Below, one piece after another: positions 26,298 through 40,638 of a DNA stretch of 64,000 nt. The notes beneath the pieces were generated by a model. That model searched no databases. It was given only the letters and a program-made list of their open reading frames with translations, and was not told the DNA's origin. The position numbers and the translations under genes were made by a program. This stretch comes from an uncultured Verrucomicrobia subdivision 3 bacterium (GTDB lineage: Bacteria > Verrucomicrobiota > Verrucomicrobiia > Limisphaerales > UBA11358). Numbering within the stretch: position 1 is the first letter of the stretch; every line of letters begins with the position of its first letter. Location: positions 62,001-126,000 of the forward strand of contig CAITTG010000097.1 in assembly GCA_903895255.1 (NCBI GenBank), read 5' to 3'.

Positions 26298-26885
26298 TCA
26301 AGATTCTAATAGCCCCGGAAATTCCTGCAGCAACAACTCCCAGTCGAGGGACTCGCGGTTAACGGGCTGCAGGACAAACAAAATCGGTTCCGCGCCGGAA
26401 TGCCCCAGCGTCAGCCGCCGCCACGTGGTCTGCCACCAATATTCCAGGGCCGACGCATGGCGCGTTTGGCCGTCCGAGAGCCAGTACATCGCCTCAATGT
26501 GCCGGCCTTCCTTGGCCAGCGACAAAACCCGCACATAACCGCCCGGCACCGGCAGGTCCCGCGCCGCCCCGATCGTCCAGCCCGCGCCCCGGAAACAAAA
26601 CGTGGGGTCATGAATCGCGTGCCGGTTGCGGGAACCGTCAATGGCCACCACGATCACCTGCTGGCGACCCACTTGATAAATGCGCTTCAGCACGCGCGCC
26701 GGCGAGTAAATGGAAATTTCCACCGGCGCCAGGGGCAGGTCCCGGCCTTGAAAGTCCAGGCCGCGCAGCGGAATGGCATTGAGCCGCGCACTGGCGTCAC
26801 TCAGCGGCGCAAACTGCCAGACGAGACTCAGGAGCAGGGCGATTCCGAGGGCAATCCAGAGGACTTTTTGGGCGGTGTTGTTCAT
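26298..26885 (-). CDS. EpsI-like exosortase-associated protein
   Basis: 195 residues with one N-terminal transmembrane helix and a periplasmic domain. It carries a variant of the EpsI signature: HDPTFCFRGAGWTI in place of the usual HKPxVCLxGxGW, keeping the Cys and the GxGW. EpsI proteins occur with exosortases and are thought to help in polysaccharide synthesis or target processing. It starts 4 bp after the membrane-protein gene that follows the exosortase, in one operon. Confidence 0.75.
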   Translation of the reverse strand: MNNTAQKVLWIALGIALLLSLVWQFAPLSDASARLNAIPLRGLDFQGRDLPLAPVEISIYSPARVLKRIYQVGRQQVIVVAIDGSRNRHAIHDPTFCFRGAGWTIGAARDLPVPGGYVRVLSLAKEGRHIEAMYWLSDGQTRHASALEYWWQTTWRRLTLGHSGAEPILFVLQPVNRESLDWELLLQEFPGLLES

Positions 26886-26889
26886 AAAA

Positions 26890-27387
26890 TCAGACGGGAG
26901 TTTTGGGCGGAGCCGGCGCCAGCCCGCACCGGCCGATCGCGGCGGCGGCGGCGGCCACCAGCAGACGCAGGAGATTCACCGGCATCGCCCCCAAATGGAG
27001 TTGCGAACCAAACCACCCAAAAACCGGCATCCAGCACACCGCCAGCACCAGCCACAGCCAGCCCCGGCGAGCGACCCGGGCCAGACTGCCAATCGACGCG
27101 GCGAATCCCCAGTATACCAGAAAATTCAAATCGCCCAAAACGCCGATCAAGGCCATCACGAGGCTGGCCATGGCCACCGGGAAGGCGCCGTTGGCGCTGC
27201 CGCCGCGCCAAATGGCACGCGCCGCCGGCAGGGCCCAGAGGATGAGCGCCAGCCAGCCCAGCCGGTCATAGGGCGAATGCTGCCAGGCATGGACGAGGGC
27301 GTCGCCGCCGAGCAGACCGGCGGCGTGCCAGGCGCAAAATGCCGCCACGAGCCACTCCACCCGGATCTGGTTGAGCAAACGCATCAT
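26890..27387 (-). CDS. Exosortase-linked polytopic membrane protein, unknown function
   Basis: 165 residues from ATG 27387 (MMRLLNQIRVEW), sharing the ATGA overlap with the exosortase stop. Much longer readings upstream in the same frame only shadow the exosortase. About five hydrophobic helices are seen and no known motif. The translational coupling to the exosortase and the EpsI-like gene 4 bp downstream suggest a subunit or helper of the sorting system. I do not recognise a family. Confidence 0.7.
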   Translation of the reverse strand: MMRLLNQIRVEWLVAAFCAWHAAGLLGGDALVHAWQHSPYDRLGWLALILWALPAARAIWRGGSANGAFPVAMASLVMALIGVLGDLNFLVYWGFAASIGSLARVARRGWLWLVLAVCWMPVFGWFGSQLHLGAMPVNLLRLLVAAAAAAIGRCGLAPAPPKTPV

Positions 27388-28208
27388 GGGGCGGGCGCGG
27401 CGGGTTTTACCGCCCGGTTGGTTTGCCATTGCAACAATGCAAAGGCCAGCCAGCACAGCGTGAACATCACCATCAAGACAAACCAGCCGCCCCAGGCGTG
27501 AAACCAGCCCTCGGCAAATTCCGTGCCGAAGGTCAGCGCCGCCGCCGTGAGCATCAGCACCCGCGCCGTGTTCGCCACCCAGGCCAGCAGGATTAACAGC
27601 GGCAGACTCCACCAATACAGACGGTTCCGTCCCAATTGGATATACGCCAGCATCGTCCCGGCAATCAGCATCGCCTGCAAGGCCTTCAGCCCCGAACAGG
27701 CGGCCTCGACCGAGACCGGCAGGCCCTGCACTTTGAGAAACGTCCCCTCGCGGCTCACCACCAGGCCCAGCACCGTGTAAAATTGCTCCGTCACCCACGC
27801 GGCCGAGAGCCGGAACCACCAGCCGATCTGGCCCGCATCCAGCGTCACCCACGGAAACGCCATCACCAGCAGGGCAAGCAGCCGGAAGACCCGCTGCCGG
27901 TCCGCCGGTTCCACCCGCAGTTGCAGCCAGCTCCACACCGCCAGCGCCCAGCCCAGCGCCAGCAGCAGGGTAAGGTTCAACACCGTGCCCAGCACGAACA
28001 GCACGACGGCCGTGGCCAGCGTGGACGGGTGAATGGCAAACGGCGTGGCCGCGAAACGCCAGGGCGCGCCCAGCCAGAGGAACACCGGCAGCGCGCCCAG
28101 AATGGGCAGCACCTCCGAGGCATTGCCCACCCAGGACCGGTCCCGGCCCCAGATCAGGGCGGCGAACGCCGCCAGCGCCACCAGCCACAACCAGTCTTTG
28201 AATTTCAT
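27384..28208 (-). CDS. Exosortase (locus 1), complete catalytic triad
   Basis: 274 residues with about eight transmembrane helices. The three residues conserved in exosortases/archaeosortases are present: Cys171 in AACSGLKA, Arg216 in NTARVL and His237 in GWFHAWGG. Exosortases act like sortases on C-terminal PEP-CTERM-type signals at the inner membrane. The start overlaps the stop of the TPR gene (ATGA). The class cannot be assigned by eye. Confidence 0.9.
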   Translation of the reverse strand: MKFKDWLWLVALAAFAALIWGRDRSWVGNASEVLPILGALPVFLWLGAPWRFAATPFAIHPSTLATAVVLFVLGTVLNLTLLLALGWALAVWSWLQLRVEPADRQRVFRLLALLVMAFPWVTLDAGQIGWWFRLSAAWVTEQFYTVLGLVVSREGTFLKVQGLPVSVEAACSGLKALQAMLIAGTMLAYIQLGRNRLYWWSLPLLILLAWVANTARVLMLTAAALTFGTEFAEGWFHAWGGWFVLMVMFTLCWLAFALLQWQTNRAVKPAAPAP

Positions 28209-37372: not shown

Positions 37373-38770
37373 TCATTTTGCCCCCGTCCCCCGCAGCACC
37401 GCCGGAATCGTCATCAACAATATCTTCAAGTCCAGACTCAGCGACCAGTTGTCAATATACTCCAAATCCAGCCGCACCCATTCGCGAAAGTCATTGATCT
37501 GGTTCCGCCCCTTCACCTGCCACAGGCACGTCAGCCCGGGTTTGACGCTCAGCCGGCGACGGTGCGACAGATTTTCAAACCGTTTCACCTCATCCACCGG
37601 CAGCGGCCGCGGACCCACCAGGCTCATGTCGCCTTTCAAAACGTTGAAAATCTGCGGCAGCTCGTCCAGGCTCCATTTTCGCAAAAATTTCCCCGCCGGC
37701 GTGATCCGCGGGTCATTGGTAACCTTGAAGACCGGCCCCGTCATTTCGTTCATGGCCGAAAGCTCATGCTTGAACTGCTCGGCATTCGTGACCATCGTGC
37801 GAAACTTGTAAATCGTGAACGGCCGGCCGTTCAGCCCCGAGCGTTGCTGCCGGAACAGGATGGGTCCCGGCGAGGTGATTTTCAGATACAGCGCGATTAG
37901 CAGGAACAACCAGGAAAAGCAGATGAGAAAAACCAGCGCCCCGACCAGGTCCATGGCCTGCTTGACCACAATCCGCCAGGAGGCCTCCGGCGTGGTCCGG
38001 AAAATCAGCAGCGGCCGGCCCAGTAATTCGTCCAGACTCGTGCGGGAAATCTGGGTGCTGAAGAAATCCGCGACCAGCCAGACCTCCACCCCCTCCAGCT
38101 CGCACGCCCTGATCACATACTCCACCTGTTCGAAATTCGTATGCTTGGCGCTGAGGATCACCCCGTAAACCGAGTGGTTGTGCAACTCCGCCACCAATTG
38201 CTGCACCGGGGTCTCCACCAGGTTCACCTCGGCCACGATGGTAACACTGTGATCCGCGCGCGTGGTCAGTTCCTCCCGGATGCGGACGATTTCGCGCTCG
38301 ATGCCCACCAGAATGAACCGGCGTTTGAACTGGGCCTGCGCCAGGTGGCTGCCCATGTACCAGCGGATGATTTCTTCCTTGGTAAAAATCAGGCAAAAGC
38401 TGATGAACCCAAAAAACGCCGGCACCGCGCGCGGGATGAACAGGTGAAACGCATACATGGTCAGCACCAGGCCCAGCGTGACAATGACCACCCCCTTCAG
38501 CAACGGCCATAAAATCGCGCTCCGCGGCCCCACCAGCGGCCGGTTGTAAAAACCCTGCGATTCCAGCACCAGCGGCGCCGCTGGAATCAGCGCAAAGTAC
38601 AGCCAGACCACGTTGTTAAAAGCGTCGGTGGGAATCATCCCAAAATTAAACCACTCGATGACATCGGGGTTGACACGCAGCAGATTGGCCATCCAGAAAC
38701 TGAAGCCGAACAGACAGGCATCGGTCAGTTGATGCATTTGCATCCGGATATGTAGGTCGCGTCGCAGCAT
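37373..38770 (-). CDS. Polyprenyl-phosphate sugar-1-phosphate transferase (exopolysaccharide initiation)
   Basis: 465 residues: four N-terminal transmembrane helices, a CoA-binding-like middle region (~130-260), a fifth helix (VFLICFSWLFLLIALYLKI) and the C-terminal bacterial sugar transferase domain with PILFRQQRSGLNGRPF, KWSLDELPQIFNVLKGDMSLVGPRPLP and KPGLTCLWQVKGRN. It transfers the first sugar-phosphate to undecaprenyl phosphate at the inner membrane. It follows EpsI by 18 bp in the second exosortase operon. Confidence 0.94.
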   Translation of the reverse strand: MLRRDLHIRMQMHQLTDACLFGFSFWMANLLRVNPDVIEWFNFGMIPTDAFNNVVWLYFALIPAAPLVLESQGFYNRPLVGPRSAILWPLLKGVVIVTLGLVLTMYAFHLFIPRAVPAFFGFISFCLIFTKEEIIRWYMGSHLAQAQFKRRFILVGIEREIVRIREELTTRADHSVTIVAEVNLVETPVQQLVAELHNHSVYGVILSAKHTNFEQVEYVIRACELEGVEVWLVADFFSTQISRTSLDELLGRPLLIFRTTPEASWRIVVKQAMDLVGALVFLICFSWLFLLIALYLKITSPGPILFRQQRSGLNGRPFTIYKFRTMVTNAEQFKHELSAMNEMTGPVFKVTNDPRITPAGKFLRKWSLDELPQIFNVLKGDMSLVGPRPLPVDEVKRFENLSHRRRLSVKPGLTCLWQVKGRNQINDFREWVRLDLEYIDNWSLSLDLKILLMTIPAVLRGTGAK

Positions 38771-38788: not shown

Positions 38789-39529
38789 TTAGCGGGCGGC
38801 CGCGTTCATCGCCAGTTTCTCCCGGGGCACCAGTTGAAACTCGGGCACCGAATCCACCATGAGTTGCTTCATCCGCTCAAAGGTGGCGGCCTCTTGTCCA
38901 GGTTCACACACGGAAAAATAGCTGATATAGGCAAAACGATCCAGCACCCCGGTGGCCAGCATGTCCCGGGCCATCCACCACATCCGCTGCCAGTGTTCGG
39001 CAGTGTACTTGCTGCCATCCACAAACCAGTAAACATAAACCCCGCGCAACACCCGGGGTTGCCCGGCAATCTCCGTTTTCAAAGTCGCCACCAGGTGCAT
39101 GACCGGCAGTTGATACGTAAATGGCCGGGTCATGGGCAGCAGTTCCACCTTCGAGGCGGCATCCTCAATCGCCCAGCCCTGGCCGGTGAGACATACTTGC
39201 GGCTTGTGGATGCTGGAGCGGTCCGTGCCCATCAAAACCACGTTCACCGCGGACTGAAACCCGTCCCGGCCGTGGAACAACGCACTGCCAAAGCTCGTGT
39301 CCGCCGGCAGCGCATCCACCACCACCTGGGCCTGGGTGGTAAGCAAAATATCGTAGCCCGGCAACTGCGTGGGCAACACCACCTGTAAATTGTGTGAACC
39401 CGGCAGCGGCCGCGTGCGCACCCCGGGCTGGCCCAGAGTTCGGTTGGCCCCCGCATGCTTGATCACCGCGGCCGTGGCGGCGGTCAATGCCAGAAACACC
39501 ACCAATATGAGCGTCTTTTGCCGGTTCAT
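38789..39529 (-). CDS. EpsI-domain exosortase-associated protein
   Basis: 246 residues from ATG 39529 (MNRQKTLIL), in a TGATG overlap with the exosortase stop; a GTG one codon earlier is possible. One N-terminal transmembrane helix, then the EpsI signature HKPQVCLTGQGWAI. EpsI proteins travel with exosortases and exopolysaccharide genes. The signature here is closer to the consensus than in the locus 1 copy. Confidence 0.88.
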   Translation of the reverse strand: MNRQKTLILVVFLALTAATAAVIKHAGANRTLGQPGVRTRPLPGSHNLQVVLPTQLPGYDILLTTQAQVVVDALPADTSFGSALFHGRDGFQSAVNVVLMGTDRSSIHKPQVCLTGQGWAIEDAASKVELLPMTRPFTYQLPVMHLVATLKTEIAGQPRVLRGVYVYWFVDGSKYTAEHWQRMWWMARDMLATGVLDRFAYISYFSVCEPGQEAATFERMKQLMVDSVPEFQLVPREKLAMNAAAR

Positions 39530-40638
39530 CACGTCAAAGGTTTGATTTCCGCCGCCGGTTCAAGACTGGCGGGGGGGCGAACTTCCGATTTCTCCAGCCA
39601 GCGGCCCAGCAGGATGACGCAACCGATGGCCACCGCAAACGTGATAAAACCAAAATTGGTTTCCACGGCCTTGCCCGCGCTCTGCCCAAACATTTCCGCC
39701 ACCATGACGGTGAGACAGAGCCGCACCACATTGCCCAGGACCGCCAGCGGCATGGCCGCCGCCACCATGAGCAGGCGTTTCCACGGCGCCTTGAAACTCA
39801 CAAATCCATAAATAATCGTCAGCGCCAGCATGGCCACCAGGCTGTGAATCCCGCTGCACGCCGGCGCCACCTCATAGGCAAAGGTGTGCTGGGCATCAAA
39901 CAACTGCGTCCCCTGCCGGATGACATCCGGCGCCAGTCCCAGTTGCGCTATGGTGGCCACGATCGTGGCCACCATAATCCGCAGCGGCAGCGTGATCGGC
40001 GCGCCCAACTCGCCGAGCGGCACGCAAAACAACAGCAGAAAGTATGGGAAAAACATCGCCTTCAAAAAGCCCGGCCCCCACGCCAGCCCCATGATCCCGT
40101 AAAAACCCGTCAACATGCCAATCACCGAAAGCCGGGGTTGCTGGATGATGTAGCCCCCGAGATGCAGCAACAACCCCGCCGCCACCAGCCAGATGGCCGG
40201 CCACCACAATTCAATTTTCTGGGCCGCCAGGTCCTTGCGCTTCCACCACACCAGGATCATCACAATGAAGGGAATCATCATCCCATGCTGCTCGTCCACC
40301 GCCGGGGAACTGTAAACATTAAACATCCAGGTCGGCAGCGAGGAGGTCGCCAGCGTGGCGTACGTGGACATTCCCAGACATTCAAACAAGGCAAACCACA
40401 CCACAGTCAGCAGCAGGAAAAACCCCCGGTTGGGCAGCGACTGCCATTCCTCGCGGCAGCGAAACCACAGCACCGGCAGCGCCCCCAGAAAAGCCGCGCG
40501 GTAAACCAGCGCCGGCCAGTTTTCCGTGTGAAATTGGGAGCAATACAGGGCGGCGGCCAGCAATCCGAGATAGGCTAGTTCATGCGGCCATAAACCCTGA
40601 AACTGCCAGGGTGGTGTTTTTTCGTTTCCAACGGACAT
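39529..40638 (-). CDS. Exosortase (locus 2), catalytic His position replaced by Glu
   Basis: 369 residues with about nine or ten transmembrane helices. Cys261 (APACSGIHS) and Arg306 (GNVVRLCL) are in place. The expected histidine about 20 residues on is missing: the segment reads FGQSAGKAVETNFG, with Glu326 at that point. In the locus 1 exosortase the spacing Cys-Arg-His is 45 and 21; here it is 45 and 20 to the Glu. The gene heads the operon exosortase-epsI-sugar transferase, with a promoter just upstream. The protein may be an altered or inactive exosortase. Confidence 0.88.
   Translation of the reverse strand: MSVGNEKTPPWQFQGLWPHELAYLGLLAAALYCSQFHTENWPALVYRAAFLGALPVLWFRCREEWQSLPNRGFFLLLTVVWFALFECLGMSTYATLATSSLPTWMFNVYSSPAVDEQHGMMIPFIVMILVWWKRKDLAAQKIELWWPAIWLVAAGLLLHLGGYIIQQPRLSVIGMLTGFYGIMGLAWGPGFLKAMFFPYFLLLFCVPLGELGAPITLPLRIMVATIVATIAQLGLAPDVIRQGTQLFDAQHTFAYEVAPACSGIHSLVAMLALTIIYGFVSFKAPWKRLLMVAAAMPLAVLGNVVRLCLTVMVAEMFGQSAGKAVETNFGFITFAVAIGCVILLGRWLEKSEVRPPASLEPAAEIKPLT

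Follow-up and report, generated by a model that had tools for sequence, protein, structure and literature searches.

Glu in place of the catalytic His in an exosortase of Verrucomicrobia subdivision 3: distribution, genomic context and possible significance

In the founding description of EpsH, the exosortases were characterized by three motifs, CxG, NxxR and HxxxG, the His of which was reported to be "absolutely conserved", and it was from such conservation that a Cys-Arg-His triad was inferred in 2006 (PMC1569441). The XrtA-type EpsH proteins (PF09721, TIGR02602, TIGR03109) constitute the best named match for the protein described here, and they have in common with it a multi-spanning membrane protein, the CxG and NxxR motifs, the Gly of the third motif, an EpsI partner and an exopolysaccharide neighbourhood. 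However, His is invariant in that family whereas Glu is present in our protein, which also misses the TIGR02602 and XrtA cut-offs. The third residue is also not His in ArtA of Haloferax volcanii, a distant and active relative. In PMC9263693, its critical residues are given as Cys173, Arg214 and Arg253, of which the Cys and the first Arg have counterparts here, whereas the third is an Arg at a different spacing; due to this, His is not universal in the wider superfamily. For ArtA, it has been proposed that a thioester is formed to the active-site Cys and is then attacked by a lipid amine (PMC7157517). Two other enzymes are of interest as mechanistic analogues. Sortase A, which is not homologous to the exosortases (PMC1569441), cuts and transfers proteins carrying a motif, a membrane helix and a basic tail, and it uses a Cys-His-Arg triad. 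Lnt is an unrelated membrane acyl-transferase of the nitrilase type, in which the residues E267-K335-C387 include a Glu acting as general base for the Cys nucleophile, together with a thioester, a basic oxyanion residue and an amine acceptor (PMC5500890); as its sequence and fold are unrelated to those of the exosortase considered here, the likeness is one of analogy and not of membership.

Sequence characteristics of the exosortase and its neighbourhood

The window, by which is meant the whole stretch of 64,000 nucleotides that was analysed, contains the following features of relevance.

37373-38770, minus strand: polyprenyl glycosylphosphotransferase, which starts exopolysaccharide (TIGR03025 379 bits, above cut-off; PF02397 232 bits)
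38789-39532, minus strand: EpsI (DUF3485; PF11984 49.1 bits, cut-off 26.1; TIGR02914 33.8 bits, below its cut-off of 42.8)
39529-40638, minus strand: Glu-type exosortase of the EpsH/Xrt family, 369 amino acids (PF09721, TIGR04178, translation, AlphaFold2 model)
39649-39651, minus strand: codon for Gly330, which ends the ExxxG (HxxxG) motif and is Gly in 58/58 Glu-type proteins
39661-39663, minus strand: codon GAA for Glu326, at the position that the catalytic His occupies in HxxxG (Glu 58, His 100, Asp 1 in this column)
39721-39723, minus strand: codon CGG for Arg306 (N-V-V-R motif), Arg in 159/159 orthologues
39856-39858, minus strand: codon TGC for Cys261 (C-S-G motif), the predicted nucleophile, Cys in 159/159 orthologues

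The reading frame at 39529-40638 comprises 369 codons, begins with ATG and belongs to the exosortase superfamily by its scores of 145.3 bits to PF09721 (cut-off 25.7) and 63.7 bits to TIGR04178 (cut-off 23). Its TIGR02602 score of 99.1 lies under the curated cut-off of 105.55, and in the profile scan none of the named Xrt subfamilies exceeded its cut-off, the nearest of them being XrtA (TIGR03109), with 126.3 bits against a cut-off of 208. A Pfam scan of the protein detected no nitrilase domain. The AlphaFold2 model (mean pLDDT 86.9, pTM 0.80) is predicted to be all-helical with about ten long helices, which is consistent with the multi-spanning membrane protein of the 2006 description of EpsH; searches for a homologue in the PDB yielded none, either by sequence or by fold.

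Five of the six founding invariant residues are retained, the motifs reading CSG (C261-S-G263), NVVR (N303-V-V-R306) and ETNFG (E326-T-N-F-G330), and it is the His alone that is substituted. The preliminary description had named Cys261, Arg306 and Glu326 (GAA), and had taken the protein for a genuine exosortase with Glu at the His site; the translation, the three codons, the PF09721 score and the alignment all bear this out. At this site the sequence AGKAVETNFGFITF aligns without gaps on either side with those of the nearest His-type relatives, AGMFVHEWFGFITF and AGAIVHEWFGFLVF, and the Gly four residues past the Glu is kept in all of the Glu-type proteins. A misalignment by one residue against an H-E or H-D pair is therefore unlikely. 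In the His-type orthologues of the order, the founding Gly at position 330 has been lost in about three-quarters of cases, with Ser in 74/100. A sequencing error, which had already been thought improbable as His to Glu requires two base changes (CAT/CAC to GAA/GAG), or an oddity of a single strain, is excluded by the presence of Glu in 58 distinct sequences from many assemblies.

Upstream of the exosortase are genes for glycosyltransferases and a flippase-like protein, and downstream of it the first 4 bases of the EpsI frame are also the last 4 of the exosortase frame. The expectation that EpsI and then a sugar transferase follow the exosortase is thus confirmed by the profile matches of 38789-39532 and 37373-38770. 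EpsI is located directly downstream in 51/58 Glu-type and 92/100 His-type loci, and the EpsI and sugar-transferase neighbours are alike for the two types.

Distribution and evolution of Glu and His at the catalytic position

Orthologues were collected from named genomes and by a search across the order (Verrucomicrobia subdivision 3), for which many loci were fetched. In the order-wide search the gene was present in 274/320 genomes, nearly always as a single copy. Among 159 distinct orthologues, all of which contain the Cys and the Arg, the residue in question is His in 100, Glu in 58 and Asp in one. Since so many distinct orthologues have Glu at this position, all with Cys and Arg, its occurrence is not a matter of chance, and the earlier suggestion that Glu might be a subfamily feature is upheld by the alignment. 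Of the relatives sampled from the phylum outside the order, 60/60 have His, as do 20/20 other exosortases sampled within the order, five of them from the window's own genome. In the genomes that were typed, the Glu type is spread over 16 families and 19 genera and the His type over 27 families, and both residues are found within three families and two genera, including the genus of the window. The codons at this position are GAG (36) and GAA (22) for Glu, and CAT (55) and CAC (45) for His. The sole Asp orthologue (L115, 1741-2808, plus strand) has GAT, and the sequence closest to it (L275) encodes His with CAT; as GAT is one step from both His and Glu codons, this Asp is possibly an intermediate. 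No mention of a Glu variant was found in the open-access exosortase literature, and the Glu-type exosortase is real and conserved and, as a variant of a known enzyme family, apparently undescribed.

A comparison of the columns in Glu- and His-type orthologues revealed none in which His is gained in the Glu-type proteins, and the possibility raised previously, that another conserved His occupies the catalytic place, found no counterpart in the alignment. Two other His residues are conserved irrespective of the type, viz. His118 (81% of Glu-type, 69% of His-type and 55/60 sequences outside the order) and His159 (98%, 98% and 45/60). The residue that follows the column (position 327) is acidic in 90/100 His-type orthologues, in which it is, besides the His, the difference from the Glu type in what is otherwise the same gene and neighbourhood, and also in 54/60 relatives outside the order. 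In the Glu-type proteins it is Q, T, N or G in 58/58 and an acid in 0/58. Because residue 327 is acidic with His and non-acidic with Glu, each type nearly always contains one carboxylate across the two positions; the sequences share ancestry, and the independent pairs for this covariation number four in all, of which one is supported. For the eight closest Glu-type pairs dN/dS is 0.06-0.14, compared with 0.05-0.33 for His-type pairs. The Glu-type genes are thus under purifying selection about as strong as that on the His-type genes, and they are not decaying.

Glu and His are far from randomly scattered over the phylogeny, as 5-6 parsimony changes sufficed on three trees; on the first of these, 6 changes compare with 48 when the labels were shuffled. 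When rooted with near relatives, Glu is basal and His is nested within it, a pattern according to which His would have been lost and then regained, although the support for the deep branches is modest, and in an AU test a single Glu clade was not rejected (p 0.34). Due to these two results, we claim only that one to a few switches are likely to have taken place, and that they may have occurred in either direction.

PEP-CTERM proteins in genomes with only the Glu type

In eight genomes the Glu-type enzyme is the only protein of the exosortase/archaeosortase families PF09721/TIGR04178 that was found, with one TIGR04178 protein in each. One of these is a single-contig chromosome of 4.9 Mb (G066, the record of L093); the other seven are drafts of 72-96% completeness, and because of this a second enzyme has possibly been missed in them. 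PEP-CTERM proteins are present in all eight (37 in G008, 27 in G143 and between 1 and 5 in each of the other six), the matches in G037 and G131 being weak (E 0.017-0.04). In the seven Glu-only genomes where tails were inspected (i.e. all except G008), these consist of a VPEPS/IPEPS-like motif, a hydrophobic helix and a basic end, and most of the proteins also have an N-terminal signal peptide. Matches with E <= 0.01 were observed in 6/8 Glu-only genomes vs 0/10 listed genomes lacking an exosortase (at least 90% complete), a difference with a Fisher p of 0.0015 in which the ten genomes come from two families only. The PEP-CTERM counts of His-only genomes show a spread that overlaps that of the Glu-only genomes. 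The co-occurrence of an exosortase with PEP-CTERM proteins and exopolysaccharide genes, as described for EpsH in 2006, is therefore also seen for the Glu type. These genomic associations favour a processing of PEP-CTERM proteins by Glu-type enzymes but fall short of proof, as such proteins could also persist uncut. Two draft genomes (G120 and G087) have 24 and 8 PEP-CTERM matches and no exosortase was found in them, probably on account of missing contigs.

Possible role of Glu326 and alternative interpretations

Based on the observed residue change, its conservation, the genomic coupling with PEP-CTERM proteins and EpsI, and the purifying selection, we consider it probable that the protein is the order's own resident PEP-CTERM exosortase, XrtA-like and active in a natural Glu form with Glu326 taking the acid/base role of the His. 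In the mechanism envisaged, whose chemistry is borrowed from the models for ArtA and sortase, Cys261 would be located on the outer side of the inner membrane, where it would cleave the substrate at its PEP motif by attacking the peptide bond and form a thioester with the new C-terminus, which would then be handed to an acceptor amine. Arg306 would stabilise the charged intermediate, and Glu326 would deprotonate Cys261 and later the acceptor amine, a proton transfer done by His in other exosortases, so that the Cys-Arg-Glu triad may work by analogy like the Glu-Lys-Cys of nitrilases and Lnt. That both Cys-Arg-His and a nitrilase-like Cys-Arg-Glu are functional within one orthologous gene, with a switch that extends to residue 327 (H-D/E to E-Q/T) and a His perhaps regained in some lineages, has in our view about an even chance of being correct.

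It should also be considered that the enzyme is active without residue 326 acting as a general base, be it His or Glu; Cys and Arg would then suffice, perhaps aided by a further conserved residue, for example His118 or His159, and residue 326 would serve only to orient Arg306 or the substrate. The conservation of these two His residues in both types, and mostly also outside the order, is in accordance with such a role, as is ArtA, in which the third critical residue is Arg instead of His (PMC9263693); by the numbering, this Arg follows the first one at a distance of 39 residues, compared with 20 in the exosortase. However, in the His-type proteins His118 and His159 occur together with His326 and thus do not look like its replacements, and in 219 sequences position 326 is limited to H, E and D, all of which can transfer a proton; we regard this interpretation as unlikely. 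Rather less credence is given to the view that the protein is a non-cutting relative, either a pseudoenzyme or a helper in polysaccharide assembly, which has lost sorting along with the His. Its location within an exopolysaccharide cluster would fit with this, and the five other, His-type exosortases of the window's own genome could do the sorting. However, the invariance of Cys and Arg in 58/58 Glu-type proteins speaks against it, and the polysaccharide neighbourhood, being shared by the His-type orthologues, does not separate the two types. Of the proposals in the preliminary description, a different mechanism is therefore favoured, whereas binding without cutting and a role in polysaccharide rather than sorting are both disfavoured, because PEP-CTERM proteins persist in the eight Glu-only genomes, the neighbourhood is the same, and selection is strong and about equal on the two types. 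Finally, it is very improbable that the EpsI partner provides the missing His or another catalytic residue, either in trans or through fusion to the exosortase. EpsI lies directly downstream in most loci and contains an almost invariant His109 and Cys114, and in five Glu-type exosortases (L087, L097, L107, L112 and L060) it forms a C-terminal domain within one reading frame of about 600 residues. However, His109, Cys114 and Arg199 of EpsI are equally conserved beside His-type and Glu-type exosortases, and in the comparison of EpsI partners no column gains a His alongside the Glu type.

As the substitution is shared by dozens of related species, the presumed Cys-Arg-His triad probably does not represent the sole mechanism of the exosortase family. 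Nature has retained Cys and Arg together with Glu in a large group of these proteins, and in some of the species no second exosortase was found, which suggests that another residue can stand in for the His. The natural swaps from H to E and from E to H, with D as an intermediate, provide ready-made probes of the role of position 326, and screens that require His would wrongly drop exosortases that are likely to work.

A second, divergent exosortase is also present in the window at 27384-28208 (minus strand); it is of the His type and scores 83 bits to PF09721. Downstream of it is an EpsI-like protein (26298-26885, minus strand) with the motif HDPTFCFRGAGW, and thus there seem to be two pairs of exosortase and EpsI in the window.
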